DNA of 32,992 nucleotides from a virus, in the IMG/VR virus record IMGVR_UViG_3300034790_000159, positions 1-32,992 of that record; one strand, 5' to 3'. This document shows positions 1-27,100 of this stretch, in pieces. The notes below the pieces were generated by a model. It was not told the DNA's origin. It did not search any database and was given only the letters and a program-made list of their open reading frames with translations. Made by a program: the position numbers and the translations under genes. Position 1 is the stretch's first letter. Each line of letters opens with the position of its first letter.

Positions 1-127
1 ACCGGGCGTAATAGGTTATAATATGGAATCAACACCAACAACCTCTGTTCCATGTGCAGTTACAAACCTATCTGGTAGCACTGGAACAGTATTCGTATCG
101 CTTAACCTTCTGCAATTAGAGGCTTAA
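1..127 (+). CDS. C-terminal end of an unidentified upstream gene (partial)
   Basis: One frame is open from position 2 to a TAA at 125-127 and encodes about 41 residues ending in SLNLLQLEA. The start lies outside the window. The fragment is rich in Thr, Ser and Val and alternates polar and hydrophobic residues, as expected for a beta-structured virion protein. Its last codons carry the AGAGG ribosome-binding sequence (118-122) of the next gene, which begins 3 nt after the stop, so the two are probably co-transcribed. The gene lies upstream of a gp8-like gene. In T4 that place is held by baseplate gene 7, but nothing in the fragment lets me identify it. Confidence 0.6.
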   Translation, partial: PGVIGYNMESTPTTSVPCAVTNLSGSTGTVFVSLNLLQLEA

Positions 128-130
128 CCA

Positions 131-1777
131 ATGCTTAATGAATGGATTGTTACACTTCACAGAAAAGAAGATCTTCAAAGTTTTTATGAAGACATGGAAA
201 CTCCTGGAGGTAATCTATTCATTCCGGATAGAGCTGTTGAAGTTGCGAATAGAAGATTAATTAGTCGCAACACACATTATATGCTAACGGACGATGAAGT
301 AGAGTTAATAAAGTCAGATGATAGAGTAATGGGGGCGGATTCAGTAGCGCTTATTGATCTTCTTACAAGACCACAGTATACAATTGCAAACGGCGATTTT
401 GATAAAAGCTGGGGTGGTGATGCTTCAGATCTTAACTGGGGTTTGTTAAGAAATAGTGAAGAAACTAATAGGAGTAACTGGGGAGCAAACGGAACTTCTC
501 TAGTATCGACTGACTTGACTATTACTGCATCTGGTAAAAATATCGATGTTATTATTGTTGATGGCCATATAAATCCAGCACATCCAGAAATGGCTGTTAA
601 CGCAGACGGTTCTGGCGGATCGAGAGTACAACAGTTTAATTGGTTTTCTTTAACTAACGCAGTATCCGGCGGTTCTAATGGAACATATACGTACGATCGC
701 GCGGGTTCATACACAAATGTTGCTGATGAAGATGATAATAACCATGGCTGCCACGTTGCTGGAACCGTTGCTGGAAACACTCAGGGGTGGGCCAGGGATG
801 CTAATGTTTACAATATAAGTCCATACGGTAGTAACCCTAGTTCACTCTCTAGCAGCCTTATGTGGGACTACATGCGCGTCTGGCATGCAACCAAAGCTAT
901 TAATCCCGAGACCGGAAGACGTAATCCAACTATCACAAATAACAGTTATGGGTCATCTCTCACAATTGGTGAAAACGGTATTGCTAATGTAACTGCAATA
1001 AACTATCGTGGTGTTCTTTTTGATCCAGGTCGTGATTTAACACAAGCAGAATTGCAAGCCCGAGGATGCTACGCTCCCAGTTCTAATGTTCAAATGGGTA
1101 TTCCATATAGCTTTACTTCTCGTAACGCTGATATGCAGGATGCGATAGATGATGGAATTATTATCGTTGCGTCAGCTGGAAACGATTCTTGGAAGACGGT
1201 AAACAGTTCAGATCAAGATTACAATAACTATTATAATATTGGCGCATCTACATTTAATTATTGGCTTAATAGAGGTACGGGTTCTGGAGCTGGCTACGCA
1301 CCTATCATTAATGTAGGCGCTACATCAAACGATACACAAGAAGATAAAGCTCCTTTCTCAAACTGCGGCAGCCAAGTAGATATTTTTGCTGCAGGTGAAG
1401 CAATACAAAGCAGTGTACACAGCGGTGGTCTTGCTGACGTAAGAAACGGGTCGTATCAGCTTAGTAAATATCAAGGGACAAGTATGTCAGGCCCGCAAGT
1501 TGCAGGCGTTGTTGCTATATTAGCAGAATCTTGGCCAAACATTACTCAAACCGAAGCACACGCTTGGTTGATAAATAAAGCATCTACAGATCAAATGCAA
1601 GACACTGGAACAGACGATCCTATGGATACAAACAGTTTACAAGGTGCAGCTAATCGTTATTTAAGATGGATTAATCAGCGACCAACTACAGGCGGTACTT
1701 TTCCAGTAAGAAACTTTAAAACAAGACCAACATCCGGAATTACTTATCCTCGCTCTAGAATTCGTAGAAGAGGCTAG
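131..1777 (+). CDS. Subtilisin-like serine protease (peptidase S8) with I9-like propeptide
   Basis: The 548-aa protein has the full subtilase catalytic set in the canonical order: Asp144 (VIIVDGHINPAHP), His205 (NHGCHVAGT; the family usually has HGTHVAGT), oxyanion Asn351 (IIIVASAGND) and Ser451 (GTSMSGPQVAG). Residues 1-80 look like an inhibitor-I9 propeptide: WIVTLH near the start, then YMLTDDEVELIKSDDRVMGA just before the protease. Such propeptides fold the enzyme and are then cut off by it. No signal peptide or membrane segment is visible, so it would act in the infected cell or in the particle. The C-terminus is Arg-rich (PRSRIRRRG). AGAGG (118-122) supports the start. It lies between an unknown gene and a gp8-like gene, which suggests a virion-associated role, either fibre maturation or attack on host surface protein. 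The catalytic assignment is strong; the role is inference. Confidence 0.9.
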   Translation: MLNEWIVTLHRKEDLQSFYEDMETPGGNLFIPDRAVEVANRRLISRNTHYMLTDDEVELIKSDDRVMGADSVALIDLLTRPQYTIANGDFDKSWGGDASDLNWGLLRNSEETNRSNWGANGTSLVSTDLTITASGKNIDVIIVDGHINPAHPEMAVNADGSGGSRVQQFNWFSLTNAVSGGSNGTYTYDRAGSYTNVADEDDNNHGCHVAGTVAGNTQGWARDANVYNISPYGSNPSSLSSSLMWDYMRVWHATKAINPETGRRNPTITNNSYGSSLTIGENGIANVTAINYRGVLFDPGRDLTQAELQARGCYAPSSNVQMGIPYSFTSRNADMQDAIDDGIIIVASAGNDSWKTVNSSDQDYNNYYNIGASTFNYWLNRGTGSGAGYAPIINVGATSNDTQEDKAPFSNCGSQVDIFAAGEAIQSSVHSGGLADVRNGSYQLSKYQGTSMSGPQVAGVVAILAESWPNITQTEAHAWLINKASTDQMQDTGTDDPMDTNSLQGAANRYLRWINQRPTTGGTFPVRNFKTRPTSGITYPRSRIRRRG

Positions 1778-1816: not shown

Positions 1817-3475
1817 ATGGCAGATATACTAACTACAAAATTAAAAAACGACGTAACTCGAATGTTCTATCAGGATATTCTAGATAACGAGTTTTTCTTT
1901 GCGGTTTCTTCAACCGTCATCGGCGAATTGAATCGTGTGCAGAGCGTGAACGCTGTGTATAGTAAAAACGATTTTCAAGAGAATATACTTTTTGGTAAAA
2001 GAGTATTTGAAGACGATGTCAAGTTTATGATAAAGTATTACCCTTGGCAAAAAGATGCTGTATATACACAATACGATTCTACTGTTGATTTAGAATCAGC
2101 AAACTTTTATTCTGTAGTTGGGCCGAACAATAACGACTCTGGCGATTATAGAGTTTATAAATGTTTATCTAATAACAACGGTGCAGCTTCTACAACTCCA
2201 CCAAACTATAACCCAGAAACTACAGCACAGATTTATAGAATGCCAGACGGATATGTTTGGAAGTTTATGTATTATCTGACTGAACAACAGTTTGAAGCAT
2301 ATAACGCATCTGGATTTATTCCATTAGTTGGAACGTTTGATATTAATCCGGATCCTAATGCTGATGCAAATAACATTATTACTGGTTCTGAAATAAGCGA
2401 TATATTCGTAGAGAATTTTATTGATAACTCAGGTTATCCTTATTTGGAAAGTGGAATAGTTGCTGGACCTCCTGGTAATGACTTTACTATACTTTTAAGA
2501 TCTAACGAGTTAAGTGAGATTCAAAACTATTATTCTGGTATGACTATCACACTAAATACACCAAACAACGTTGCTTACACATATGTTATTGATACTTATA
2601 CTTGGGATGGTGCGTCTGATAGAGGAACTATTAAAGTAATCGGCGATCCTAAAAATGATGGAGTAATTATTAACTCTACGTTTAAGATATTACCAACAAT
2701 TAAAGTTGAAGGCGATGGCACAGGTGCTATTGCTATTCCAAGAATCGTGGATGGTAGAATTACTAACATTGAGCTTATCGGTGAGTCTGGTGAAGGTAAA
2801 AACTACAATAATGTTACTGCAACAGTAATAGATCCTCCTTTTGATTTTGATCCAGATGATACTAATTCTATTGATGTGAGAGCAGTGTTAAGACCTGTTA
2901 TTTCTCCATTTGGTGGTCACAACTTTAATCTGATTGACGAGATGTATTGCCGTCACATTTTACTTTATTCTTATATTACTGAAACTGATAACAATAAAAT
3001 CGGTGCAACAAACTCATATTCAGCAGTTGGTATTTTAAAGAATCCAACGTTTATTCCAGATCCTGAAACAGCAAACACTGCTTCGCCTGATGTGTTTGAT
3101 AATCGCGTACAAGTTATTACTGATGATTATGGAAAATTTATTGTAGATGGAATTGTAACGCAAAAAGATATTAACAGCAATACAACGTTCAGCGGACGAG
3201 TACACGAAATTGATGCCGCAGCTAATACTGTTTACTTATGTAGCTATATGGGTCCGCATATAAATACTGCTAACAACGATATATCATTGGATTACACGCA
3301 AGATCTTATCAATTCTACTGGTCAGAGAATACAGATAAATACACCTGTAGCCAATAATGTTATTGAATCACGATACACTCAACGATCTGGTACCGTATAC
3401 TTTATGGAAGACTTCTTTCCTTTAACAAGAGAGACAAGTTCACGCGAAGAATATAAATTGGTCTTGGAATTTTAA
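1817..3475 (+). CDS. 8: Baseplate wedge protein, T4 gp8-like (long marine form)
   Basis: This 552-aa protein would be a baseplate wedge subunit. The N-terminal segment YRVYKCL (residues 111-117), then a Pro/Asn-rich stretch and DGYVWKF (144-150), corresponds to the WLVYRCL ... DGYVWEY segment of T4 gp8. T4 gp8 is 334 aa; longer versions beginning much like MADILTTKLKNDVTRMFY are familiar to me from marine T4-like phages. AAGG (1804-1807) gives a normally spaced ribosome-binding site, and a perfect late promoter lies just upstream. The next gene starts 13 nt after the stop, with its AAGGAA site overlapping the TAA. The C-terminal half is beta-rich with no recognised domain. In the T4 particle gp8 holds together the gp7/gp10 arm of the wedge; that role is transferred by homology. 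Confidence 0.75.
   Translation: MADILTTKLKNDVTRMFYQDILDNEFFFAVSSTVIGELNRVQSVNAVYSKNDFQENILFGKRVFEDDVKFMIKYYPWQKDAVYTQYDSTVDLESANFYSVVGPNNNDSGDYRVYKCLSNNNGAASTTPPNYNPETTAQIYRMPDGYVWKFMYYLTEQQFEAYNASGFIPLVGTFDINPDPNADANNIITGSEISDIFVENFIDNSGYPYLESGIVAGPPGNDFTILLRSNELSEIQNYYSGMTITLNTPNNVAYTYVIDTYTWDGASDRGTIKVIGDPKNDGVIINSTFKILPTIKVEGDGTGAIAIPRIVDGRITNIELIGESGEGKNYNNVTATVIDPPFDFDPDDTNSIDVRAVLRPVISPFGGHNFNLIDEMYCRHILLYSYITETDNNKIGATNSYSAVGILKNPTFIPDPETANTASPDVFDNRVQVITDDYGKFIVDGIVTQKDINSNTTFSGRVHEIDAAANTVYLCSYMGPHINTANNDISLDYTQDLINSTGQRIQINTPVANNVIESRYTQRSGTVYFMEDFFPLTRETSSREEYKLVLEF
3259..3266 (+). promoter_or_regulatory. Possible internal late promoter (TATAAATA) inside the gp8-like gene
   Basis: A perfect TATAAATA octamer lies inside the gp8-like coding sequence, 222 nt before the ATG of the DUF4815-type gene. 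It could give extra late transcription of that gene. The octamer is AT-only and can arise by chance in coding DNA of this composition, so support is weak. Confidence 0.25.
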
Positions 3476-3488
3476 GGAACTCAAATAG

Positions 3489-6400
3489 ATGCCTATTAAC
3501 ACAAATTTAAATATTGCACCATATTTTGATGACTTTGACGTCGAAAAACAGTTCTATAAGATTCTGTTTAAGCCAGCTTATGCCGTTCAAGCGCGCGAGC
3601 TGACACAACTTCAAACGATTCTACAAAACCAAGTTGAACAATTCGGTGATAATATCTACCAAGAAGGTAGTATTATTAAGGGTTGCAACTTTACCGATCT
3701 CAACGGATTGCAATTCGTAAAGCTCACTGATAAAACCGGGTTTGACGTAGAGCAATACGTATCTGGTCCAAGCACAGCTATTATTGGTGGTATCTTAACA
3801 GACATTGACGTCGTATATGAAGTCCAAAACGCGGCAGGCTTAAAAGCAAACATCATTGCTGCAACTCGCGGTTTTGAAACACGTCCGCCTAATCTTAATA
3901 CATTCTTTATTAACTACCTAAACACTTCTGGTGCTGTTAAAGCATTCGTTAGTGGTGAAGATTTAACAATAACTAAATACGTGTATAACGGCTCTGTTCT
4001 TGTATCAGCACTTCAAGAAGGTGGAGCTGGAGCAGACGCTGCTATTTGGCAGATCAACGTTACAGATACTGCTGGTTTAAACTGTGTTGGACAATCGTTT
4101 GGTATTAGAGCATCTGCGGGTGTTGTATTCCAAAAAGGTCATTTCTTATTTACAGAAGATCAAACACTAGTTGTTTCTAAATACAGCAACGTTCCAAATG
4201 ATCTATCTGTTGGTTACGCGGTTACTGAAAGTTTAGTTAGTTCTTTACAAGATAATAGTCTATATGATAATGCAAACGGGTCACAGAACGAAAATGCTCC
4301 TGGTGCTGATAGGCTTAAAATGGTTCCAACTCTTGTAGTTAAAGATACTGCAATCGCTGATGTTGATCCTGGGTTCTTTACGCTTATCCGCTACCAAAAC
4401 GGTTCAGCAGTTAGTTTGCGCGACGTTTCACAGTTTAATGCTATTGCTGATGAGCTTGCTAAAAGAACATATGAAGAATCAGGCAACTACATTTTAGATA
4501 GCTTTAAAGTTGATATGGATCGCCGAGGTACAGAATTAACTGCGCTTGTCGGTAAAGGCACAGCGTATGTTAAAGGTTATCGTGTAGAAAACAGTGGCAA
4601 AATGTCATTTACTGTAGATCAAATTTCTGATACTGCTATACAACAAAATCAAGCAACAACTGTTGACTATGGTTCATATTTAGATATAGTAGATATTAGT
4701 GGTACAGTAGACATTAATTACGGTACAGTAGATCTGCAAAACACGCTGAGCGGTAAAATCGGTGAAGCTTACGTTAGAAACATTACACCAACTAAGATTT
4801 ATTTGTTTGGTGTTAAAATGGTTGGAAGCAACTCGTTTGACGAGGTTGTTCGTGTTGTTGGTACTTCTGGTGTGATTACAGTAGCAGCAAACGCAAAAGT
4901 TAAAAGCATCAAAAATTCTGCATTAGTTTTCGAAATAGGTACTCCTTACGTTAAAGAGCTTACCGATATTATTGTCCCAGTTAGATCTCATTCTTCAGTT
5001 ACTGTTACAAATGACGTTATTGAGCTTACTGCAGGTATTGATGAAGACTTTGGTTTAGACCAAAATGATATTATTTTTGTTGATACTTCAAACACAGTTG
5101 TTCCAGTTGTATCTGTAGCAAAATCTTTAAACAACTCAGTATTAACTATCACGCTTCAAGCAGGCGCTACAGGCGGCGGTGAAGTATATTATAATAAACG
5201 CATGACTAATGCAGATTCTCATAATAAAGCTGCCGTGCAACCATATGTTAAAGTAAATTATTCTACAGTTACTACTAAGTACAGCTTAGGTTTCCCTGAT
5301 GTTCACAAACTTATTAGTGTTAGCACAGGCCCTGGTGGAACAGATTTTACTAGCAGTTTTAAGCTTAATACAAACCAGACAGATCACTTCTATGATATCT
5401 CGTACATGGAATACATCCCAGGTCGTCCACAACCAACGAATGGTCAACAATTAGTTGTTCAGGTTGGAGTGTTTGAAATCAATACTTCTACTGGCAATTA
5501 CTTCTTCACAATTAATAGTTATCCAATTGATGATGTAACCACAGTGTTGCCCGGCGGATTTATTAGATCTTCTGATCTTGAAACTTACACCGGAGCAAAC
5601 GGCTCGCGTTATAGTTTAAGAAATTGCTTTGACTTTAGACCTTATGTTGATAAAGATCCACTTGTTGATTATACTGATGTTAGTATAGGAGCTGCGGGCG
5701 TTATTGCAGCAGCCGTTGGTTCTTATAACAAAACATTCAGCGGCAACTATGCAGTTCCTGCATTAGCATCTACTATTACTTCTGACGTTGAAAATTACTT
5801 GTCACGCGTTGATGTTATCGCTTTTGATTCTTTTGGTGATGCCAAGCTTATTAAAGGTGAAGAAGATCAGAATCCAATTACACCAAAAGTAAGTCCAGAC
5901 CAGCTAGTTGTTTCGGAAATTTATATCCCAGGATATCCTGCGTTATCTCAAGCTGAAGCGTCTGCGCAAGGTAGATTCTCTTGTGCAGTTCAACTGAAAG
6001 CTGTTGGTACTACAAACTATACAATGCGTGATATTGAAAAGATCGAAAAAAGAATTAAAGGTCTTGAATATTATGTCAGCTTAAATCAATTAGAGCAAAG
6101 TTCAGAAAATCTATTAATCTTGGATGAAAACGGATTAACAAGATTTAAGAATGGTTACATTGTTGATCCAATGAATGATGGACAAATTGCTAATACTGAT
6201 GATCCAAACTACAGAGCTGCTATTCACTTTGATAAGCAAATTCTTACACCAGCACTTAATACATTCCCGTTAGATTTAAAATATTCATCTAGCTCTAGCG
6301 CATCTGTTTTCCCAAGTGTTAATGATGCTGAAATTGCAACACTAAGCAGAAATGCTAATATTAAATTAATGGGTCAACCATACGCAACAAACTTTAGAAA

Positions 6401-8879
6401 CTGTGTATCTAACTTCTGGAAGTATGACGGCAATGTTCAAATATCTCCAAGCCATGATATGGCTCACGATACAATACAAAACCCAGTTCCATTAGAAATT
6501 GATTTAGTTTCAGTATTCCAAGACTTACAAGAAACTTGGCCGATGACTGGCACCACTGAATGGGGTGAGATTTCTGAAGGTGCAGGAGTTGAAAGCAGAA
6601 ATAACCAAGGGTGGTGGAGAGGAACACAAGTAACCACAACATTCCCTAGAGAACAAGCCGGTACTATATCTTCGCTAGGAATAAACGATGGTGGTCTAAA
6701 CCAAGTTGGTGATTTTGTTACTAACGTTGCATTCCAACCATATATGAGATCACGCGATATCAAAGTGTTTATCTCTGGTTTGCGTCCTAGCACACAGCAT
6801 TATTTCTTCTTTGATGGTGTTGATGTAAATGCTCATGTTGCCCCAGGATCTCCAGTAGCTGAACACGCACGTGCTGTTCAAAGCTTTGGTGCAAAAGCTG
6901 CTGCAGTGTCAACAGACGCTGATGGAATTCTAAGAGCAGTATTTACTATCCCGCAGGGACAGTTCTTTGTTGGTGATAGAGTATTAACAGCAGTTGACGT
7001 TGACCAGTTCTCTGCAATTGGATCAGCTTCAACTTCTATTGGCGAAATTGCATATCACGCTTACAATATCTCACAGAGCAAAACCACGGTTTCTACAAGA
7101 ATGCCAGAGTTTGGTATTGAAGAAACTACGACATCTAGAAACTTAGCTGCCCGTACCGCAACACGTCGCGAGGGTGGTTTCGATCCTCTAGCACAAACAT
7201 TCTTCATTAAACAAGGTATGGGTCGTGGATCTAATACAGTGTTTATCTCTAAGGTAGATTTATACTTTAAAAGAAAGAGTGATATTAACGGTGCAACAGT
7301 TACTTTAAGAGAAGTTGTAAACGGTTATCCTTCTTCAATTATTCTGCCATTCTCTAAGTTGCACATAGCTGCTTCTGATGTTAGTGTTTCGGATGACGCC
7401 ACATCAATAACAGAAATTAATTTTGATGCTCCAGTTAGAATGGATGTTGAAAAAGAATACGCAATCGTTGTACAGCCAGACGCTAACGATCCTAATTACT
7501 TAATCTTTACATCTAAGGTTGGTGGATTAGATCTTACTGCTGGATCTACACAAGGTCAATCAGTTAATATGGACTGGGGCGATGGTGTTCTATTCACATC
7601 TACAAACAACAGAGCTTGGCAATCAGTACAAGACGAAGATATTAAGTTTACTCTTTATCGTCACGACTTTAATGCTGCAACCGGTTCAGTAACGCTTACA
7701 AACGATGATCACGAATTCTTTACATTAAGTGATTGGGATGGAAGATTTACTGCTGGCGAATTTGTTTATAAGCAAATAGATGTTGGTTACACAGTAAGCA
7801 TGGTTCAAGGAACTAATGTTCTTACTCAATCAGGTAATGACTTCTCAGCGGATTATGCAGTTGGTGATTATATTCGTGTAATCGCGTCTGGCGGAGTAAG
7901 CAACGGAACAGATATATTTAGAGTTGCAAGTATTGATAGTGCAACACAAATAACTACCGACAAGCCATGTTCATTCAATGGAGCAAATGCTACGGGTCTT
8001 CCAATCGTTGCCGGTATAATTTCTCACTACAACAAGTACACTGCTTCAGAAATTCATCTAAAGCAAAGCTCGTCTGTATTGGCTAAGAGATTTGAAGCTG
8101 CTGACGTAATTACTGGATTTACTAGTGGAACTGATGGAACTATCGGAACAATCGATAATATCAATTTAAGCTATATCCAACCATTAATTCAGAAAGCAAA
8201 CGATTCTGCAACAACAACTTCTATTACTGGTACATTTACTGATCCTGCTAATGTTATTAATACATATAATATGCCACTAAAGTTTGGTGCTAGTAATCAC
8301 TTTACTAATAAGGGTGTTGTTATTTACAGCAAATCAAATAACTTTATTAATCCAAAACCATTTAGCATTAATGTTAATATGACTAACTCCTCTAATGCTA
8401 CTTCAACTCCTATCGTTGATTTAGAATTGGCTACGTTGTTAGCATATCAATTTAAAGCTACTAATGATGCCGCTACTACTTCTAAGTATATCTCCAAGAC
8501 TATTGAGTTAGCGGAAGACTTAGATGCAGAAGATATGAATTTGTTAGTTACAGGTTATAGACCAAATGGTACGGATATTAAAGTTTATATTAAACCACAG
8601 CATATGCAAGACAGTGCAGCTTTTGATACAGTTGATTGGATTGAGCTAGAATTATTTGAAGGTATTAACACATATTCTTCATCCTCTAACTTAAATGATT
8701 ATAAAGAGTTTAGATATAGAGTTGCAGATGCTAACAAAGATACTGGTGTTATTACTTACACAAGCACAGCAGGTACATTCGTTGGATATAGAAAATTCGC
8801 AATCAGAATTGATATGATCGCCGACAGTATTCATAACGTACCCTTTGTGAAAGATTACAGAGGAATCGCGTTAACATGA
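3489..8879 (+). CDS. DUF4815-type virion structural protein (baseplate/tail fibre attachment)
   Basis: The 1796-aa N-terminus has the DUF4815 signature: an FDVEKQFYKILFKPAYAVQA stretch followed by RELTQLQTILQNQVEQFG and DNIYQEGSIIKG (residues 16-65). This family occurs in large tail or baseplate proteins of marine T4-like phages. A short predicted helix, MRDIEKIEKRIKGLEYYVSL, lies near residue 850. After it come beta-rich segments such as VTNVAFQPYMRSRDIKVFIS and DPLAQTFFIKQG that I associate with the same phage proteins. No enzymatic motif is visible. The start has AAGGAA (3474-3479) 9 nt upstream. The stop overlaps the next start (ATGA), indicating translational coupling. Its place after gp8 matches the region of T4 genes 9-10, so a fibre-attachment or peripheral wedge role is likely, but this is inference. 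Confidence 0.75.
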   Translation: MPINTNLNIAPYFDDFDVEKQFYKILFKPAYAVQARELTQLQTILQNQVEQFGDNIYQEGSIIKGCNFTDLNGLQFVKLTDKTGFDVEQYVSGPSTAIIGGILTDIDVVYEVQNAAGLKANIIAATRGFETRPPNLNTFFINYLNTSGAVKAFVSGEDLTITKYVYNGSVLVSALQEGGAGADAAIWQINVTDTAGLNCVGQSFGIRASAGVVFQKGHFLFTEDQTLVVSKYSNVPNDLSVGYAVTESLVSSLQDNSLYDNANGSQNENAPGADRLKMVPTLVVKDTAIADVDPGFFTLIRYQNGSAVSLRDVSQFNAIADELAKRTYEESGNYILDSFKVDMDRRGTELTALVGKGTAYVKGYRVENSGKMSFTVDQISDTAIQQNQATTVDYGSYLDIVDISGTVDINYGTVDLQNTLSGKIGEAYVRNITPTKIYLFGVKMVGSNSFDEVVRVVGTSGVITVAANAKVKSIKNSALVFEIGTPYVKELTDIIVPVRSHSSVTVTNDVIELTAGIDEDFGLDQNDIIFVDTSNTVVPVVSVAKSLNNSVLTITLQAGATGGGEVYYNKRMTNADSHNKAAVQPYVKVNYSTVTTKYSLGFPDVHKLISVSTGPGGTDFTSSFKLNTNQTDHFYDISYMEYIPGRPQPTNGQQLVVQVGVFEINTSTGNYFFTINSYPIDDVTTVLPGGFIRSSDLETYTGANGSRYSLRNCFDFRPYVDKDPLVDYTDVSIGAAGVIAAAVGSYNKTFSGNYAVPALASTITSDVENYLSRVDVIAFDSFGDAKLIKGEEDQNPITPKVSPDQLVVSEIYIPGYPALSQAEASAQGRFSCAVQLKAVGTTNYTMRDIEKIEKRIKGLEYYVSLNQLEQSSENLLILDENGLTRFKNGYIVDPMNDGQIANTDDPNYRAAIHFDKQILTPALNTFPLDLKYSSSSSASVFPSVNDAEIATLSRNANIKLMGQPYATNFRNCVSNFWKYDGNVQISPSHDMAHDTIQNPVPLEIDLVSVFQDLQETWPMTGTTEWGEISEGAGVESRNNQGWWRGTQVTTTFPREQAGTISSLGINDGGLNQVGDFVTNVAFQPYMRSRDIKVFISGLRPSTQHYFFFDGVDVNAHVAPGSPVAEHARAVQSFGAKAAAVSTDADGILRAVFTIPQGQFFVGDRVLTAVDVDQFSAIGSASTSIGEIAYHAYNISQSKTTVSTRMPEFGIEETTTSRNLAARTATRREGGFDPLAQTFFIKQGMGRGSNTVFISKVDLYFKRKSDINGATVTLREVVNGYPSSIILPFSKLHIAASDVSVSDDATSITEINFDAPVRMDVEKEYAIVVQPDANDPNYLIFTSKVGGLDLTAGSTQGQSVNMDWGDGVLFTSTNNRAWQSVQDEDIKFTLYRHDFNAATGSVTLTNDDHEFFTLSDWDGRFTAGEFVYKQIDVGYTVSMVQGTNVLTQSGNDFSADYAVGDYIRVIASGGVSNGTDIFRVASIDSATQITTDKPCSFNGANATGLPIVAGIISHYNKYTASEIHLKQSSSVLAKRFEAADVITGFTSGTDGTIGTIDNINLSYIQPLIQKANDSATTTSITGTFTDPANVINTYNMPLKFGASNHFTNKGVVIYSKSNNFINPKPFSINVNMTNSSNATSTPIVDLELATLLAYQFKATNDAATTSKYISKTIELAEDLDAEDMNLLVTGYRPNGTDIKVYIKPQHMQDSAAFDTVDWIELELFEGINTYSSSSNLNDYKEFRYRVADANKDTGVITYTSTAGTFVGYRKFAIRIDMIADSIHNVPFVKDYRGIALT

Positions 8880-9070: not shown

Positions 9071-10219
9071 ATGTCAAAACCATTAATAGCAAACATTGTT
9101 ACAACGCAGACATTTCAAAATTGGTTTGATAAAACTAATGAAATTACTGACCTTGTAAGAGACTCTGTACTTACAGCATCCGTAACTGGTGATACAACTA
9201 CCGGTGACGCTGCTTTACTGGGTGAATTCACTGCAAATACTATTATAGCATTTAATATTCTTCATACGGATGAATTTGAAGCTAGAACGCCAGGAGCTAC
9301 TATTGGTATTTCCTCGCCAATTAATGTTACTCCTGCGTTATCTCCTACTGCTGCAACGTTTACATACGGAGCATCTGGTGCACGTACTCGATATACAGAC
9401 GGAACAACAGCTTGGGATATTGGTTACGATAATAGTACAAATGCTAATTTCCAAATGAATCAAGGCGCTGGTGGACAGTTTTCATTGTCACCTGCCGGCG
9501 TATTATCAGTACCAAGTGTTGTTATTGATACCGATATAACTGTTGATACCATTACTACAAATCAACTTGTAGCTAATAACGTAGTGCTTAACACTGCTTC
9601 TGGTGCTTTCTCTGGAACATTCGCCGGAAACTTTACTGGTGATGTATATCATCCACAAGGTAATAAAGTTTTTGAAAACGGTGGTCCTGGAGCAGAAATT
9701 CCAGCAACCTTTACAGGTAACGTACTTGGTACAGTTAGTTCATTAACAAACCATACTACATCATCTCTTGCAGAAGGCACTAACAAATATTTCACAGCTG
9801 CAAGAGCTCAAGCGGCCATAACAGGTGGCACGGGTGTTTCTGTTGTTGCTGGCGAGGTTGCTATTGGACAGTCAGTGGGTACATCCGCTAACGTAGGATT
9901 TGCTACGGTTGTAGCAACGGGTGATATTACGGCATTTGGTTCGGTCTCAGATCGTACGCAAAAAGAGAATATTAAACCAATTACTAATGCTCTAGATAAA
10001 GTTGAGCAACTTGGTGGATATACATTTAACTATAAAAATAAGCCCGATACTCCAATGACTGGTGTAATGGCACAAGAGCTTTTAGAAGTTTTACCTGAAG
10101 CAGTTTATAAAACTATCGATGGAAATACTGGAGAAGAAATCTACGCCGTAAGACACGGAAACATAATTGGATTGATAATTGAAGCGATCAAGGAATTGAA
10201 CGAAAAAGTAGGTAAATAA
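9071..10219 (+). CDS. Tail fibre protein with C-terminal S74 chaperone
   Basis: The 382-aa protein has a beta-rich body of short Thr/Ser/Val repeats (residues 1-290), for example TFTGNVLGTVSSLTNHTTSS, as in phage fibre shafts. The C-terminal 90 residues are a Peptidase_S74 intramolecular chaperone: SDRTQKENIKPI at 293, MAQELLEVLPEAV near 333-345 and IIGLIIEAIKEL near the end. In endosialidases and related fibres this domain drives trimerisation and then cuts itself off at the conserved Ser, so Ser293 is the predicted cleavage point and the mature fibre would be about 292 residues. The gene starts directly after the TAA of the 64-aa gene with only a weak AGAG site (9058-9061), so coupled translation is likely. 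The next gene starts 1 nt after its stop. Confidence 0.85.
   Translation: MSKPLIANIVTTQTFQNWFDKTNEITDLVRDSVLTASVTGDTTTGDAALLGEFTANTIIAFNILHTDEFEARTPGATIGISSPINVTPALSPTAATFTYGASGARTRYTDGTTAWDIGYDNSTNANFQMNQGAGGQFSLSPAGVLSVPSVVIDTDITVDTITTNQLVANNVVLNTASGAFSGTFAGNFTGDVYHPQGNKVFENGGPGAEIPATFTGNVLGTVSSLTNHTTSSLAEGTNKYFTAARAQAAITGGTGVSVVAGEVAIGQSVGTSANVGFATVVATGDITAFGSVSDRTQKENIKPITNALDKVEQLGGYTFNYKNKPDTPMTGVMAQELLEVLPEAVYKTIDGNTGEEIYAVRHGNIIGLIIEAIKELNEKVGK
9947..10216 (+). other. S74 self-cleaving trimerisation domain (first copy)
   Basis: This region encodes residues 293-382 of the fibre at 9071-10219. SDRTQKENI, the GVMAQEL segment, VLPEAV and the final LIIEAIKEL helix match the family order. 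The predicted scissile Ser codon is at 9947-9949. It is one of two S74 domains in the window and shares the SDxxxKENI and ALDKV elements with the other. Confidence 0.85.
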
Positions 10220-12012: not shown

Positions 12013-15000
12013 ATGTCAAAGATTTCAGAATTAGGTCCAATTAAAGGTGCCAATACTCGCTCTGAAGACCTTTTTGTTATCGTTAACCTTATCCAAGGCG
12101 ATGACGGTACTAAAAACATAACTAGAAAAGAACTTGTTGCTGCGATTCAGTACGAAATCTTTGATAGTATTACAATCACCGGTGGATCAATTTCAGGTGT
12201 TAGAATCTTCAATTCAGCTATTGAAGATAACATTATGGACCGTAACATTTTCAACAACGGTACCATAGACGGCTCACAGATTGTATCTAGTGATATATCT
12301 GGTGGTACAATGACTACCACAGAAGTATCAAACGTTGCAATCCTTACATCTGATTTTTCTGACGGTACCGGCAACAACAACATATTCACAAACACGATTG
12401 TTGATTTTGGAGCGCTAAACAACTCCACTGGTAATAATAACATCTTTACCAACTCAACAATTGATGATTCGTTTTATAATAATGTTACCATCGAAGGTGG
12501 TACAGCAAACAACCTAATTCTTACAAACATTACAATCGATGAGCTTATTCTCGAAGATGCTTTAATCTCGAATAGTGCTATCGTTACAACAACGTTTGCT
12601 AATGGTTCAATTACAGATTCTGTTATCTCAGGTAACACATTCCTGTTCGATACATTCATATCTAATTCAGAGATCACTAACACTGATCTAGATGATGTTG
12701 ATATTACTAATTCAAGATTCTCAAATGGTCAAATTTGGGATACACTTATTAGCAATTCAGAAATCATCGATACATCAGCTAATAATATTACCATTACATC
12801 TTCTGCTCTTAATGATAGCACTGCAAACAATGTTAATATTACACAGTCTGACTTTTCAAATGGTACTGGTTCTGACAACGTATTCACTAATCCTGTATTG
12901 GAAAATGCAACCTTAACCGGTGCAATGGATACGGTTGTTGCTACAAATATCTCAATCGGAAGTTCTACTTCTGATGATCTAGTACAACAAAGATCAACTA
13001 TTCAAAATTCTGATATCTCAGAATCAGTTGTTGCTAATTCAACTATTAATCAGTCAGAACTTGTTGACTTTGATATGAATCTTACTAACGTCTTCGAGCC
13101 ACTGCTTGACGAAGATAGTTACTTTGCTCTAAAGAACGTCAAAACTGGCGATACAGAGAAAATGACTTATCGTCAACTATATGACGAAGTTTCTAGGAAG
13201 ACAGAAAAATCTCTTAAAGTTCACGTTGCAACAGATGGCGATGATAGTTACCAAGGTAGTATTCTACAGCCAGTGCGCACTTTAAAGCGTGCTGAAGAAC
13301 TTGCATTACAAAAAGCCGGTGGTTTATACGATCGTAACGACCTTAACAATGCCGTACATATCTCGGTAGGTCCTGGTACTTACTATGTTGATGAACCAAT
13401 TATGTTACCTGATGATTGTTCAATGACTTCAACAGCGGGTCAGTACGCAACGGTTATTCAGAAGAAAAAGGGATGGGAAAAGACTAACGGTATTCTAGTT
13501 GGATCTGGTAACTACGTTCAAGGTTTTGGTTATATGAACTTTGAAGTAGATAACTTTGATCAGCCAGAAGGTGGTTTTGCTATTGCATACCGCCCAGGTG
13601 CTTTGTTAAGACGTTCTCCATATATTCGAGATAGCTCACAGCTTTCAAACTTCAACCGTTTGGATGTTGAACCACCTTTGAATCCATTCAACTCTAAAGG
13701 TACAATCCTCGACTTAGGTCAAGAATTCTACATGGCTGCTGGTCACAGTGTTCAAGCACAATTTGAAGTCGATGATGAAGTTACATTCTCGTCTGGTGCG
13801 TCTGGTTATATCTCATTCGTTGCTGATATCGATTCAGCTCGTCAGATTTACGTTAGAAACCTTAAGGGTAACGTAGAAATTGGTGATATCCTTTATGCTC
13901 AACGCGGCGGTACAGGTACAATTGAATCAATCGGTATTGACGATTTCCCTAACAGACTAGTTGGTCGTGGTGGTGGTTGTCTATTAGCTGACAGAGCGGT
14001 ACTAGATACTGACTCACTATTTACATATGTATTATGTTTTGGTTTTACACCACGTACTCAAAACGGTACAGGTTACGTTGCCAAAAACGGCGCTGGTGTT
14101 AACGGTATCGGTTCCTTGTCAATCTTTACACGTCAAGCATTCTTTGCGCTAGATGGTGGCCAGATGACCTTGAACAACTCCGGTTCACAGTTTGGTGACA
14201 TCTCAATGCGTGCTCGCGGTAGCACAGTTATTATTAGACCAGCAAACGCGACACAAGCTGAATTAGTTCTTGATACTGCTTTTGCAGATTCTCTTGAAGA
14301 AAACAAGCAAGCAATCGTAGATAATATGGTTGATTACTTAACTGCTAACACAACAACTGGTTTTGATGGTTCTCCAGGTCTTGGTTATCAAGGTTATAAC
14401 GCAGACAAGTGCTTTAGAGATTCAGGATTAATTGTTGATAGTGCATCCTACGACGTTGCTACAGACAGTAACTATTGGGGACGCTTAAACGGTATCACAT
14501 ATCGTTCGCCTATCTCATACATCGTTGTTAACGATCAAATGACTGAAACTGTTGGTTCTATTGAACATATCAAAGGTGAAATAAATCACATCTTTGCTCA
14601 AGAACAAAATGCCGAAGTACTATCACGTTTAAACGATTCTTTAGATGAATCATTAAACGTTCTTCAAAATGGTGCAGAAGCTGCTAATGCTATTAAGTTT
14701 GCTGATACTGGTGATCAAGATGCAACAGCATCTCGTGAAGTATTACAAGATAACAGAGCATTCGTTATCGATGAGTTCGTAGATTGGATTGATAATAACT
14801 CTGAGTTCTACGCTTACGACAGTGTTAAGTGCGAACGCGATGTCCAAGAATATATCTTGCCAGCAACTAAGTTTGACATGTTGCTAGATACTAACTATAA
14901 CGCTACAACTACTGGTTTGGCTTATTACGTTAATACTGCAAGAACATCTCTTGAAAATCAAAGAAATGAAACAGTAGCTTCATTCGAAAGATTACGTAAA

Positions 15001-18000
15001 ACTACTGATAATATTATTCAAGCTGAAAGCCCAGAAGGCGCAGTTGAAGCGTATACATCATTCAATACAATTATCAACGCTTTGAATAACACAGGCGCAA
15101 AATATACACCAACTAAAACAACTTACGATCCAGTAACTGGTCGCATGGTTATAACAATTGGTACTCACGACTTAACAGTTGGTAGATATGTAAATCTTGC
15201 AAAAGAAAGCTTCACATTCACATGCTCAAGCGATAACTTCAAGACTGAGATCAGTCACCCAAGAGCATCTGAAAAAGCTTATCTAGCTGCGTTACCAATC
15301 ATTGAAACATCAGCAAACACAATTACCGTTAACCCAGGATTAACTGCTGCTAACTACGAACATAGATTTGTATCTGCTAAAGCTAACTCGGTATCAGTAA
15401 TCGGTGAACAAATTACATTCTCTGATAACGCTGGAATTGCAGCTGATAAGAGAAATGCTCGTAAGCAACTTCAAGCTAACAGAGAGTTTGTACAAGATCA
15501 CATGATGGACTGGGCAGACCAAGAATTCTACTTCTACGACAGCAAGAAATGTCATAGAGATACTGAAGAATATATCTTGCCTGCAGTTCAAAGAGATATG
15601 ATCCTTGGAACAAACTATAACTCAATCCAAACTGGTGCGGCATATCGTACTAAGTCTGGTGAGGTAAGTGTTACTGATCAGTTAACTCAAACAGTTGGTT
15701 CTGTTAATTATCTGAAATCAGAAACTGCAGCAATAATTACTAACACAATTGCAGAAGATAGAGCTAACCAAGCTTTTGATGAAATGACTAGATTGCTTAA
15801 CAATAACGGCAAAAAGTATACTCCTTCAAATGCTGTATATGCTCCGGCTTCAGGTACAACAGTACTTACAATTGGTTCACACGACTTTAACATCGGTGAT
15901 AGCGTTTACATTGAGCCTAACAGCTTAACGTTTACTTGTGCACTTGATAGTAACGTTACAGAACACACATATCCAACAACACAGTTCATTAACTATACTC
16001 CAACTGCTGCTACATACGTTCCAGAAACTGGAGAGTTTAGTGTAACTATTGGTACAAACGCTCTTAAAGCTGGTGATCTTGTAGAATTCAAGCCAAGCAG
16101 CCTAGTGTTTACATGTACTTTGGATGGCAACATAACAAACCATCCTGCTCCTGAATCACATCACCCTTTCTACAAGAAGCAAATCGTAATTGATAGTGTT
16201 GATGGTACAACCATTAATATGAACGTCGGTTCAGTTGTAGATGGTGGCGGAGTTCATACCTTTGTATCTGCATCAACTGACGCGGTTCAAGCAGAGAAAA
16301 GACATCCTGCTTACAAGAAACCAGTTACAATTTCTGATAGAGATGCGACAACGATCACAATCAATGTTGGTGAGTCAACCGATACATCGGTTCATACATT
16401 TGTATCTGCAACTGCTAACGCGATTCGTGAAGCTGATATGTGGGAAGGTAAGTTTACTCCACAAACTGCATCATACAATCCAGTATCTGGTGACATGGAA
16501 ATCACAATCGGAAATCACGATTTACCAGTTGGTAAGTGGATTGAAATTGCTCCAGAGTCAATGATCTTTAGTTGCGATGTTGGTGGTGTAACAGGTACGG
16601 ATGCTGCTCCATTATACGACCATCCTGCATATAAAGAGCCAGTTAGAGTAAAATCAGTAACTGCTGATACAATTACTGTAAACGTTGGCAATGCAAACGG
16701 TCACGCCAATAACCACACATTCGTAAGTGCTGAAATTGATTGTATCAATGCTAACGCGCTTTACTTTACAGATGCTGCTAAGGTTCAGAAAGCCTTCACA
16801 CCAACTGATGCAACATACAATCCAGTAAGTGGAGAGTTTGTTATAACCATAGCTGCTCACGGTCTTACTACAGCAGATCATGTTGAATTACAGCCACAAA
16901 GCTTTGAATTTAGTTGTGATCCTGGAACCGGCGTTGCTACTGACTTGTCACCACGTATTGGAGACTATGCCTACAAGTTACCATTAGAAATTAGTGCAGT
17001 AACAACAGACACACTTACAGTAAACGTTGGTAACGCTGGATCATATACCGGTGCCCATACTTTTGTAAATGCTGATCAAGGCGCGGTAGTTAAGGTTAGT
17101 TCTACAACTCAGGGCGTATATGCTAGCAGAATTCTTCAGAAGAACAAGCCATATCTTCAAGCAGAAGTTACAGCTTGGTTAGATAATAATTACTACACAT
17201 ACAGCAAAGCTAAATGTGAACGCGATACTGGCCTCATCTTAAATGCAGTAGCAAGAGATGTTGTAACTGGTTCTAACGTTAACGCGATTTACACTGGTAA
17301 GGGTTACCGCATAGGCACCGCTGGAGCAAATAACTTAGTTAATACTCAACTTGCTCAAACAACTGGTGCTATTACTTGGTTGAAAGGTAAAATCAATACT
17401 GACGTTCTTACAGACTCAACAGCAATTACGAGAGCTGATGCAGCGTTCGACGAGATTATCGATATTATGACTAACGGTAATGTTAACGCTGATGAATTAT
17501 ACTTTGGTGAGGAAGCGGTTTCATCTGCTCACCGCATGGCTCGTGGCGCATTACAAGCTAACAGAACGTTTATCCAAAAAGAAATCGTTGCATGGATTTC
17601 AGCAAATTATCCTACATTCACATATAACACTGTTGCTTGTGAAAGAGATATGGGTATCTTTGTTGATCTAGCTTCATGGGATATTCAACACGGTTCAAAT
17701 GCTGCTACGGCTTCAAACGCAAAACTATATTTTGAAAATGCTATTCCAGTACTATCTGATAACGAGATCGTTCCAACAAGTGAAGCTTACTTCTTTGCTG
17801 CAGACCTAATTGGTAAAATAGTTAGAAACGAAGTTATAACCGCGTTGAATGTAACAAATACTCAAACAATTGTTGAGACAACTACATTCACACCAACTGA
17901 TGCAACATATGATCCAGCATCTGGCGACTTCGAGATGACAATTGCTGGTCATGGAATGAAATTAAATGATCGTGTTACTTTAGCGCCTAATTCGTTCGCA

Positions 18001-21000
18001 TTCACTTGTGATATGGATGGAGACAGCGCAAGTAAAACTTACCCAAGATCTGGTATTGATCCATTTGCGAATAAAACATATTCCATTAAAGCAAAAACAG
18101 CAAACACAGTAACTTTAGATGCAGGCGCATCTGGTCCTAACAAATACTTCACTCCTACAGCTGCGGATTATAATGCTGCAACCGGTGACATGATAGTAAC
18201 AGTTGGTCAGCATGGTTTAGGAGTTGGAAGAAACGTTGTATTAGAAAACAACTCGTTCACATTTATTTGTGATCAAGATGGTGGCGCAACCCAACATACA
18301 TATCCTCGTGCAGGTTCAGATCCATATGCTGGAGCATCAATTGCAATTACTGCGGTTGGTTCAACAGGTCATACACCAACTGACACTGACTACAATCCAA
18401 CCACTGGCGATACTGTTCTTACAGTTGCTAATCACGGATTTAGCAATGGCGATTACGTCTTATTAGAAGATAGCTCATTAACATATACATGTGTACTTGA
18501 CGGTAACAGAGTTTCAAAATCTTACCCAAGAGCTGGAAGTGATTATGCTTCAGGTCGTTGGTTACAGGTTTCTGATGTTACAGCAAGCACATTTAAAGTT
18601 AATGTAGGTCCTTCTTCATATAGAGGCGCACACAGATTTGTATCAGCAACTGCTAACGCTGTTAAACGTCAAACTGGAACCTTTACAGTTAATGTAGGTA
18701 ATGCAGGTTCAGCATCTGGCTCGACACACTTATTTGTATCAGCAACTGCTAACGCTGTTAAGCATGAGCCACAGGCACCACATACTTTTGTAAGTGTTAC
18801 AGCAGACGCAGTTAAAATTGCTAATATGGCTGAAGCTTATACGCCGGCTGATATTGATTACGATCATATCACTGGTGTGATGGTAATGACATTAGGTTCG
18901 CACTCTTTAACTGAAAATGATTATGTAATCTTTGATGAAAATGCTATTACGCTTAGCTGTTCAAGTAACGGTGGCGGTAACTTATCTCATCCACGGCCAA
19001 CAGATCCAATCTTTAATAAGCCAGTTAGAGTTGATGCAACTACAGCAACTACTATCACGTTGCAAGTTGGTGAAGCTTTTGTTGACGCGGTACACACGTT
19101 CGTATCAGCTGTAACTGATGGTGTAAGAAGATCTATTAAGCCAAGTGTTGCTGCCGAAGTTGAAAAATTATTCTACGATCTTGGAGATACTATCCGTCAA
19201 AACGATGGTACAATCGCAGCAATATCTGAGCCAAGAATCGAGTCATTAACATCAGCTTACGCGCCAGCTCTTATTACAGATTACAAAGCTGTACGCGGTC
19301 AAGCTCCTAAGTATCAAACCGAAATCATTAAGCATATTAGTGAAACATATAACGGTCTTGGTTACGATGAAGAGAAATGCCCAAGAGATGTTGGCTATAT
19401 CGTTGATGCAATATCAGAAGACTTAGAGTACGGTGGAGATTCAGCTACAGTACATTCTGCAAATTATTATTACCAAGGTACACAAAGTGTCCTTGAGCCA
19501 TATTCAATGTTACCTACTAAGTTAGCATTCAATCATATTGCTGATGTAGTTGATAAAATTGTTAAGAACGAAGTAAACGAGCCAATCTTTGGAGCTCGCT
19601 TTACTCCAGCTGCTGGAACTACATACGATCCAGCTACAGGAATGTTAGTAGCAGAAATTGGTACTCACACGTTAACAACTGATGATCACATTTGGTTCAC
19701 TCCAAACGCGATTACTTTCAGCTGTGATACAGGTTCAGGTCCGGCCAACCATACTGCTCCAGAGGCACACCATCGCTTCTACAACAAGGCTTGCCCAGTA
19801 ATTGGGGTAACATCAACTACTATTACATTGTGGGTAGGAGCCTTCTCTGGAGGTACTACACATACATTCGTAAGCGCATTAACTGATGGATTTAGCGAAA
19901 TTAATGGTAACCTTGTATATCAAAATGTTGCTCTTGCAGCTGCTGATATAGCCACGGGTACTGAAGCTAAGAGACTTGCAAATATTATTGCTAATGTAGT
20001 TGATGACCGTTTAGTTATCCCAGGATACGCTGGATCACTTGATGTTAGTGTTGGTCAACAAGTACCTGAAGCGTTACCGGTTGCTACTGCTTCTCTTGTT
20101 CCTGTTATGGAGCCAAGTAGAACATATGCACGTAAATCATTACAAGCTAACAGAAGCTTTATTCAAGAAGAAGTTGTTCGTTTCGTAAATGATAACAACT
20201 ACACTTACGACGAAGCTAAATGTGCTAGAGACGTTGGATTCATTATTGACGCGATCGCAAGAGATGTTCAGACTGGTTCTGATTATCCTTCACAATATTA
20301 CGGTCGAGCTTATAGAGTTGGTACTGCTCTTGCACAAAACGTTATTAACGAGCAATTATCAGAAACAGTACAAGCTATCGAATATGTACGAGATGATATT
20401 CTACCAAGACTAGCTGGTGTTGCATTAACTAGAGCAACGGATGCTTTCACAAATGTTATTAACATTATGAAAACTGGTCCAGTATCATTTACTTACGACT
20501 ATGGTCTTGCAGGAACTGGTACCTCAGATATTAATGCGACTACGGGCTTAACCTTGAACATTGCATTCTTACAACAGGAAGCAATATCTTGGATCGCAGC
20601 AAATCACGGTTCATTAGTATATGACGAAGCTAAGTGCAGAAGAGATATTCAAATCTTAGTTGAAGCTACCGCTTTCGATATTAGACACGGTTCTAACGTC
20701 GCGATGAGAGACTTCGTTAAGTTATACTTCGAAAATGGTATCAACGTTGGATTACCTGAAGCTCAAAGAGCACCAACTGCTGCACTATATGGTCACATGG
20801 CCGCGGTTGCAGAGCAAGTTGTTCTTAAACAAGCTGTAACTCCTACAGCTGGAAACGCAGTTGCACAGGTAACTGGTGGATTCGGAAATGTAGTTGGAGC
20901 ATCCGGTGTTGAAGTTGAGAATCTAATCGTAATCGTACAAGATATCATTGCAGAAGATTCATTGATTAATCTTCCTCAAGCTAGAGAGCCGCAAAACTTT

Positions 21001-23694: not shown

Positions 23695-24116
23695 TGGCTA
23701 TTACAACAATCGTAACATCACAAGCACCTGATGCTAAACCGGTCGCCAAATCGTTTACTTTGACGACCAACTGGCAAACAATGATCGAGGTACCCAACTA
23801 TGAGGTACCGGAACTTGTATTTGGTGGATCAACAACAGTAGAACCGGGAGTAGGCGAAGTTATTTCGCCTCTCATTCTGTGTAACTTTACAGCAAACACT
23901 GTTGCGGTTGATGTAAGAACTCATAGAGAAGACGTAAATGCTGAGTTTTGGATTATAAGAAACTTGCAAATCCCAGCGTATGACACAATCCCATTACCAC
24001 TTAACGGCCAATTCTTTAAATCTGGCGATTTGCTAGAAATTAAGTGTGATACAAACTTAGCAGTAGATGCTTCGTTATCATTCACCCTCGGTCAGTCTGA
24101 AGAGGATGATGTATAA
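23694..24116 (+). CDS. Small virion-associated protein, 140 aa, unknown function
   Basis: The ATG overlaps the TAA of the giant gene by 1 nt (TAATG). AAGGG (23679-23683) is the ribosome-binding site inside the giant gene. Its own TAA overlaps the ATG of the collagen-like gene in the same way, so the three genes are translationally coupled. The protein is beta-rich and acidic at its end (SEEDDV). Segments such as ESW-free FTLTTNWQTMIEVPNYEVPE, LILCNFTANTVAVDVR and PLNGQFFKSGDLLEIKC suggest a small beta-sandwich. No enzyme motif, signal or membrane segment is present. I have no confident family name. A cap, adaptor or decoration protein joining the two large fibre proteins is the natural reading of its position, but that is inference. 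Confidence 0.75.
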   Translation: MAITTIVTSQAPDAKPVAKSFTLTTNWQTMIEVPNYEVPELVFGGSTTVEPGVGEVISPLILCNFTANTVAVDVRTHREDVNAEFWIIRNLQIPAYDTIPLPLNGQFFKSGDLLEIKCDTNLAVDASLSFTLGQSEEDDV

Positions 24117-27100
24117 TGGCTTTTAGATCTATTAGCGGAAGCAAGATCGTTGGACAGGGACAGCCGCAAGCTGTTCCTATTCAATTAGATCCGGCACCCT
24201 ATACTGGTGCGGTAGCTTATGGCTCCGATGGTTTAATTTACGTTTCTAACGGGACAGCTTGGAATGCAGTTGGCGCTGGTATTCAAGGTACAACAGGTTT
24301 GCAAGGCGACGATGGACTACAAGGTCTACAGGGCGATTATGGTCCTGGATTTGATGTTATTGGTTCAGTTGCTGATGTAGACTCCGGTGGTGATCCACAG
24401 GCAACTCTTAACACAGCATTTGCGTCAGCAACAACAGGCCAAGCAGTAATTGACGACGCCGATGATGAGCTTTGGGTTTATGACGGAGCAACATGGATTA
24501 ACGTTGGTTCATTCCGTGGTGTTCAAGGCTTTACTGGTAACCAAGGAACGCAAGGCGTACAAGGTACTATTGGTGAAGAAGGTATCCAAGGTTCGCGTGG
24601 TTTCCGCGGCTTTCAAGGAACCCAAGGTATTCAAGGAACAACTGGTATTCAGGGTACCCAAGGTATTCAAGGAATCCAAGGAACACAAGGTGTTCAGGGC
24701 GTACAAGGCGTTCAAGGCTTACAAGGTAACCAAGGCTTACAAGGTAACCAAGGTACACAGGGTCCACAATCAATTCAAGGTACAACCGGCATCCAAGGCG
24801 ATACTGGTTTCCAAGGTACGCAGGGTACTGAAGGTACAAGAGACTATGCAGTAACTAACAACGGTAGCACAAACTATCTTGTTGATGGTGTAGCTCAACC
24901 AACACTTCATCTTATCCGCGGATTTTCATATAATTTTAACCTATCAGTTTCAGGCCATCCGTTTTATATTAAAACAGCAGCTACAACTGGTACAGGTGAT
25001 CAATATAACGATGGTGTTACTAATAACGGTGCTGAAACTGGTACGGTAAAAGTACAATTACCACATGATGCTCCATCTGCGTTATATTATCAATGTTCTA
25101 TTCATGGTGGAATGGGTGGCTTAATTAATGTAAGCGATCTTGGTCCACAAGGTACTCAAGGTTTCCAAGGAACAACTGGTATTCAAGGCGATACTGGCAT
25201 CCAAGGTACCCAGGGTGTACAAGGTATTCAAGGTGCTCAGGCCGCACAAGGTATTCAAGGTGATACTGGTATTCAAGGTATTCAAGGTACTCAGGGCGTA
25301 CAGGGTGTTCAAGGCGTACAGGGTGTTCAAGGAACAACTGGTATTCAGGGTCTTCAGGGTATCCAAGGTTTAATAGGTCTTCAGGGTGTACAAGGCACAA
25401 CTGGCATTCAAGGCACAACTGGTATCCAAGGTTTACAAGGCGGAACTGGTACTCAAGGAACTCAAGGCGGACAAGGTACGCAAGGTTTCCAAGGTGTTCA
25501 AGGAGCGGTTGGTCATTACGGTGGTTTAACTCACGAGTTTAACTTTGTAAGCAATATAACAGCATCTACTGCTCCAGGCACAAGCGGCTGGAAACTTAAC
25601 ACAAACAACGTTTCTACTGCTACAATCTTAACAATTGATGATGTTCCGTTAGATAATTTTACAAACGATATCGATGAAACGTATGATTGGTTGGCTGCAA
25701 TTCCTGGAGCTAATAAAGGTCTTATCATAATCGAAAGTTTTGATGATGGTAATGGTCCTGCAGGACACCATCAGGTTGTGTACGAATTCTCAAACTTTAC
25801 TTGGGATGGCGCTCCGGGTGCTGGCAAAACATTCGGTTGGTTTGATATAACTTATGTTGGACAATACGGTGTTACAAGTACAAGTTGGGCTACTGATGTA
25901 ATCGGTGGCGGTCATGGTGCTAAGACTCTTATTAACTTTGTTCCACGAGGTGCTGCTGGTATTCAGGGTATCACGGGTTTCCAAGGCACTCAAGGTGTTC
26001 AAGGCTTGCTCGGTACACAAGGTATTCAGGGTGGACAAGGTACACAAGGTATTCAGGGTGACTTTGGTGTTCAAGGTGCTGCTGGTGCATACGGTGGTGC
26101 TTCGTTCGAGTACGACTTTACTCCAGATACTGGTCCTACTGGTCCTTCTGCAACATTACTTAAGTTTAATAATACTGATGTAACCGCAGCAACTATCATG
26201 AGAATATCAGATACAGCTGTTGGTGGCGCAAACTTAGATCCATATCTAAGAAGTTTAGATGATGGTGGTAGTTCAGTATTAGGTTATATTAAGATTGTTT
26301 CGATTGCTGATCCAGCAGAATTCTTATTATACACTCTTACTGCTTTAACAGAAAACGCAGCATATTATAACTTTAATGTAACGTTCTTAACTAAATCAAC
26401 TAACGCTGATGCAACATATTTTACTAATAATACTGACATAATCTTTACGTTCACACGTGCTGGTGATATCGGTGTTCAGGGCATCCAAGGTGTACAGTCA
26501 TTGCAAGGTTTGCAAGGTGACTTAGGTCTACAAGGTACAACTGGAGCGGGTACTCAGGGTGCACAAGGAACGTTTGGTATTCAAGGTGATCTTGGTATTC
26601 AAGGTTTCCCAGGACCAATTGGCCCACAAGGTATTCAAGGTACAGACGGTAACCAAGGTACAGGCGGTTTACAAGGTTTAACTGGTGGATTTGGTGGCAT
26701 AACATTTGATTACACTTATAGCACTGATACTGGAGCTACAGATCCAGGTGTTGGTACTCTTAAGTTTAATGCTACTAATTTTGCTTCTGCAACTGCTATG
26801 TTCATGGATGATAGAGATGACGGCTTTGTTGATATCCAACCATTCCTAAGAACAATTGATGATTCAACTAGCCCGATTAAAGGTCACTTTAGAATATCGG
26901 AAAAAGCTACTCCATCTAATTTTACAATATTTACTATTTCTTCGTTAGTAGAACAATCTGGTTACTTCTCAATTATTTGTGGTGTAGTAAGTGGTTCGGT
27001 AGCAACTTTTGCTGATGGCGCAGATATTATCATTACATTCGCAAGAACAGGTGATATTGGTCCATTAGGTCCACAGGGTATTCAAGGTTTTGATGGTATT

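Follow-up and report, generated by a model that had tools for sequence, protein, structure and literature searches.

A subtilisin-like protease paired with a baseplate-type partner protein in marine T4-like phages

Organization of the protease locus

The window, which is the whole stretch of 32,992 nucleotides of viral DNA that was analysed, begins within a partner gene that is followed by genes for a subtilisin-like protease, a baseplate wedge protein, and a tail protein (Table 1). The stop codon of the partner gene (125–127) is positioned 3 nt ahead of the protease start. The gp8-like and VrlC-like tail genes are closest to those of phiM12/Cr30-like alphaproteobacterial phages, and the cyanophage members of the protease family phrog_9158 are at most 43% identical to the window protease.

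Table 1 Features of the protease locus in the window
Feature	Position	Strand	Basis
Partner gene, 3' end: last 41 residues (PGVIGYNMESTPTTSVPCAVTNLSGSTGTVFVSLNLLQLEA) of the conserved C-terminal domain	2..127	+	Sequence read
Subtilisin-like serine protease, 548 aa	131..1777	+	Pfam S8, phrog_9158, AlphaFold pTM 0.85
Predicted propeptide domain, residues 1–81, I9-like fold, without signal peptide	131..373	+	Model secondary structure, 3whi alignment, hydropathy
Low-confidence linker, residues 82–98	374..424	+	pLDDT <50 at 85–91; lowest mean identity among regions compared
Catalytic domain, residues 99–517	425..1681	+	Z 30–33 to proteinase K-like enzymes over model 99–515; residue conservation
Active-site codons	D144 560–562; H205 743–745; N351 1181–1183; S451 1481–1483	+	
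Basic C-terminal tail, motif RPxSGxxYPRxRIRRRG	1682..1774	+	Motif count in ORFs
gp8-like baseplate wedge protein, 39 nt downstream of protease	1817..3475	+	phrog_438 baseplate wedge subunit, 2.7e-49
VrlC/DUF4815 tail protein after gp8; context, outside the pair	3489..8879	+	Pfam DUF4815 2.1e-43; 34% full-length identity to Sinorhizobium phages

The original prediction put the protease in a baseplate gene cluster and proposed a search of the neighbouring genes in related phages. The gene order gp25, gp6, gp7, partner, subtilase, gp8 in the close relative L008 confirms the placement. When gp8, the neighbouring gene, was used as the query of an independent scan, 79 loci were retained, 76 of them with a readable upstream ORF; in 75 of the 76 a subtilase directly precedes gp8. 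The sole exception (L204) is a contig that starts within an ORF whose end resembles a subtilase C-terminus. The protease gene is core to this group of phages. In Sinorhizobium phage phiM12, one of the closest sequenced phages by the tail genes of the window, gp7 adjoins gp8 with nothing between them, and the baseplate of T4 is built without a subtilase. The pair of partner and subtilase is located in the tail-fibre region, away from gp8, in many cyanophages. The gene psbA was found in none of ten related contigs.

Elsewhere in the window, a 382-residue protein (9071–10219) terminates in an S74 intramolecular chaperone domain (Pfam 5.5e-17), which is a fibre end that cleaves itself. One ORF of 3893 residues (12013–23694) contains many repeats of the YDEAKCxRDxGxIVDAISxDI type and of a second beta-rich unit. 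A 1557-residue collagen-like (GxQG) protein (24116–28789) has a cupredoxin-like unit, GHPFYIK...YYQCSIHGGM, in its interior and an S74-like chaperone at its end.

Active site and predicted structure of the protease

The ORF is an intact subtilase, which confirms the earlier observation. Residues 135–491 match Peptidase_S8 (PF00082) with an E-value of 8.7e-27, scoring 94.6 bits where the cut-off is 21.8, and the Pfam search of the 548-residue protein returned nothing besides this domain. The match to phrog_9158 is nearly full length (residues 2–545, E 2.5e-108). The catalytic set named in the original prediction is intact, with D144, H205 (the first His of HGCH), N351 (SAGN), and S451 (GTSMSGP) all in the expected motifs. 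The protease combines three characteristics of the S8 family: the profile match, the Asp/His/Ser triad with the oxyanion Asn, and a predicted subtilisin fold. The dN/dS of the gene relative to its relatives is approximately 0.13–0.21; therefore, it is under purifying selection. A signal peptide is missing, as had been proposed: the first 60 residues contain no hydrophobic stretch, and their best 11-residue Kyte-Doolittle mean is 0.9.

The AlphaFold2 model of the protease, built on 28 homologues, has a pTM of 0.85 and a mean pLDDT of 79. Its best structural matches are proteinase K-like enzymes with Z-scores of 32–33 (2b6n: Z 32.5, 270 aligned residues, rmsd 2.5). The catalytic fold and the propeptide arrangement are shared with aqualysin I, proteinase K, and pro-subtilisin E (Z 30–33). 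By contrast to secreted proteinase K-like subtilases, the window protease lacks a signal peptide, contains large insertions, has a basic C-terminal tail, and is encoded in a phage structural operon.

Residues 1–81 are modelled as a beta-alpha-beta-beta-alpha-beta domain with pLDDT of about 80–92. Alignment of the full model with the unprocessed form of pro-subtilisin E (3whi) gives a Z-score of 30.0 over 336 residues (model 1..517), and fervidolysin (1r6v) aligns to model 2..536. The I9 profile of Pfam has no match in the protease at E<=0.1; however, short divergent propeptides are easily missed. Because of the modelled domain and the two alignments, we regard the I9-like propeptide of the original prediction as real at the level of predicted fold. 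The linker that follows is the likely place of self-cleavage.

The tail motif is C-terminal in 60 of the 87 ORFs recognized by the subtilase profile. It occurs in 0 of 419 other ORFs, and a general role of the YPR motif in anchoring proteins to the virion was therefore rejected.

The protease is encoded as a pair with an upstream partner

The window contains only the end of the partner gene; a complete partner of 246 residues is present in L002, the subtilase of which is 100% identical to that of the window. An upstream ORF with either of two conserved domains at its end was found in all 44 cases in the subtilase scan and all 49 in the gp8 scan. In the phage records, 16 of 16 subtilases are preceded by a partner ORF, 11 with a type 1 and five with a type 2 domain. 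These counts cover true subtilases with a readable 5' side; the two tally rows without a partner are non-subtilases, one being the partner ORF in L070 and the other a P-SSM2 tail fibre, and were left out. The gap between partner and subtilase is always −4 to +4 nt, and the length of the partner varies from about 190 to 1290 residues.

The N-terminus of the partner in the window group resembles T4 gp9/gp10 and matches phrog_677, "baseplate wedge tail fiber protein connector" (6.7e-12). The corresponding Pfam family PF07880 is below its cut-off of 25 bits in the partner of L008 (9.3e-5, 23.0 bits) and above it in that of S-H38 (9e-8, 32.8 bits). The type 1 C-terminal domain, the commoner of the two, is a predicted beta-sandwich with pLDDT of about 80–95 over most of residues 151–277. 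No solved relative was assigned to the beta-sandwich: the best Z-score is 7.8, and the match to the HFTV1 turret is weak (E 8.4e-4). A mirror-tree test compared the distances of the subtilases with those of the partner domain and gp8. The subtilase distances correlate better with those of gp8 (rho 0.76) than with those of the partner domain (rho 0.54); therefore, there is no excess that would indicate special co-variation between partner and protease, and this idea was rejected.

Relatives of the protease and conservation of the active site

A tblastn search identified relatives in 40 phage records, 33 from Synechococcus phages, four from Prochlorococcus phages, and three from marine single-cell viruses, all with identities of at most 43%. 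The scan of viral contigs with the subtilase yielded 70 loci, some of which are 97–100% identical. Among plasmids there were just two weak matches. Several of the cyanophage relatives are already annotated as "subtilisin-like serine protease" or "peptidase", and the literature search found, in the collection of papers that it covered, none describing the function of this protease. Judged by sequence, the protease is a further member of the annotated family phrog_9158 and is not itself new. New here are the fixed pairing with the partner, the core status, and the interchange with another protein. The phrog_9158 subtilases of Kyanoviridae (S-H38, S-CREM1, Sf-FR1, S-WAM2, S-RSM4, and ACG-2014; T4-GC_292) share the domain layout, the active site, and the upstream partner domain, and in S-H38 and S-CREM1 the subtilase is likewise located between a tail-pin gene and gp8.

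The His, Asn, and Ser of the active site are invariant in an alignment of 116 long homologues with identities down to about 20%. The catalytic Asp position is occupied by Asp in 101 of these sequences and by Glu in 12, and it is unaligned in three. The Glu-containing sequences, including that of S-CAM1, are all among the most distant homologues. A conserved catalytic loss in relatives, named beforehand as evidence against the original prediction, is absent except for the Asp-to-Glu change in one distant branch. The claim that the enzyme looks active and self-maturing is supported by the invariant His, Asn, and Ser, the Asp retained in nearly all relatives, and the model resembling pro-subtilisin, and the protease is predicted to be active.

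The Glu-for-Asp subtilases (L091 4889–7144, L117, L121, L189, L194, L196, L197, and L199–L203) retain His, Asn, and Ser and remain paired with the partner; those of the L189–L203 loci also still precede gp8. In L071 (1–1535), the subtilase is divided between two ORFs, which reflects either a genuine interruption or a fault of the assembly.

Exchange of the protein downstream of the partner and added domains

The type 1 partner domain is followed by an unrelated large protein of 600–930 residues in S-H9-1, ACG-2014i, Sf-CH1b, S-BM3, S-SCSM1, and two AG-345 contigs. The unrelated proteins have no convincing Pfam match. Such a swap of the protein encoded after the same partner domain is as expected of a docking platform. 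In T-even phages, the fibre gene gp37 with a conserved C-terminus is followed at once by the gene of a separate tip protein, gp38; the likeness to the pair described here is by gene adjacency alone, and the tip protein here is a protease. The siphophages S-CRES1, PSS2, and S-CBS2 have the partner domain without a protease behind it.

A family with an N-terminal NxGNTGW motif and no Pfam match is encoded directly after the same partner domain in L085 (6578–8881), L088 (4883–7180), L089 (4880–6706), and L083 (5178–7508). In S-BM3, a giant ORF annotated as peptidase S8 (135315–143261; L089 1–1918) lies approximately 650 nt before the partner-domain gene.

Some relatives of the protease carry C-terminal laminin-G or cupredoxin-like domains. 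In others, among them the subtilases of L034 (4603–7170) and L041 (4648–7590), approximately 300 residues are inserted between the Asp and His motifs. The insert is 98.6% identical between L034 and L041 while its flanks are 65–69% identical, which suggests a recent exchange. It has no Pfam match and no convincing solved relative by sequence, and it is absent from the window's own genes. It matches cyanophage baseplate wedge proteins at 47–49%, and for this reason a virion domain was preferred to the interpretations as an intein or an extra catalytic domain.

Probable presence of a homologue in virions

The virion proteome of S-SCSM1 comprises 45 phage proteins detected by mass spectrometry in CsCl-purified particles (PMC9602691). 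In the RefSeq entry NC_070962 of this phage, we counted 47 coding sequences labelled as virion proteins, and both the subtilase gp144 and its upstream partner gp145 are among them. The label is also attached to a translational repressor and an adenylyltransferase, the latter named in PMC9602691, and it is missing from several genes with structural names; because of this distribution, we take it to mark detection by mass spectrometry. Like the window protease, S-SCSM1 gp144 (YP_010669921, 1411 aa) has a subtilase domain encoded directly after the partner ORF. However, it is a distant homologue, with about 31% identity in the catalytic domain, it contains a C-terminal laminin-G/lectin domain, and its partner has the second-type C-terminal domain. 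In the proteome papers on S-CREM1 and S-CREM2, the main text makes no mention of the subtilase. The proposal that the protease rides in the virion is supported indirectly by the S-SCSM1 labels, which come from one distant homologue and the partner of that homologue. The phage particle probably carries the protease as a cutting tool.

Possible roles of the protease

Our preferred reading, to which we give even odds, is that the protein is an active, self-processing subtilase that belongs structurally to the baseplate or the tail fibres, is displayed by its partner, and cuts a host-surface protein. The protease would be made as a fixed pair with the product of the ORF directly upstream. The gp9/gp10-like N-terminus of the partner would dock to the baseplate, and its C-terminal beta-sandwich would display the protease on the particle. 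The propeptide may be self-cleaved while still in the host cytoplasm, and the mature protease, carried in the virion, would cut a protein of the host surface at adsorption. Tailspike depolymerases cut polysaccharide, whereas the protease would cut protein in a like role. Several observations argue against this reading: the distance of the single virion-labelled homologue, its lectin-like end, absent here, and the other type of its partner domain; the lack of special co-variation between partner and protease; the occurrence of the partner domain in siphophages that lack the protease; and the replacement of the catalytic Asp by Glu in 12 of 116 homologues.

The main rival is a rather unlikely assembly protease that would cut the partner, gp8, gp7, or a fibre, the last as the original prediction proposed, during maturation of the baseplate or fibres, and might stay in the particle. 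Such a role would suit the core status, the fixed place in the wedge operon beside structural proteins, and the missing export signal, and phage head assembly employs a dedicated maturation protease. However, many cyanophages have the pair in tail-fibre regions, not beside gp8, and therefore the partner is the sole fixed structural candidate substrate that travels along. Furthermore, the baseplate of phiM12, like that of T4, is built without a subtilase, and some versions of the protease bear lectin-like or other surface-type domains. The missing signal peptide would also suit a protein that is made late, stays free of the particle, and breaks down host proteins in the cell or at lysis, but the core position of the protease in the wedge operon, the fixed pairing with a gp9/10-like protein, the virion label of the S-SCSM1 homologue, and the fusions to virion-type domains make this improbable. 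There is a similarly slim chance that the subtilase fold is merely a structural or receptor-binding piece. The Asp-to-Glu change in the distant branch and the interchange, behind one and the same partner domain, with an unrelated protein that matches no enzyme family point in that direction; however, a pure scaffold is not expected to keep His, Asn, and Ser in 116 of 116 sequences and Asp in 101 of the 113 aligned.

A candidate surface-attack cassette

We tentatively propose, as a possibility short of an even chance, that marine T4-like phages carry a two-gene surface-attack cassette. One gene would encode a protein of the baseplate or a fibre, with a conserved beta-sandwich docking domain at its end, and the other an exchangeable tip presented by that domain. 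The tip would in most cases be a subtilase that activates itself and cuts proteins of the host surface during adsorption, and elsewhere an unrelated binding protein. The cassette would be core in one group and located at other places of the genome in others. The partner domain would offer a putative docking domain with natural swaps for testing. The enzymes with which phages gain access to the cell mostly cut sugars or peptidoglycan. If true, the cassette would be the proteolytic counterpart of the polysaccharide-cutting tailspikes, and a core protease in the baseplate operon of a widespread marine group would point to proteins as a barrier or receptor on the host.
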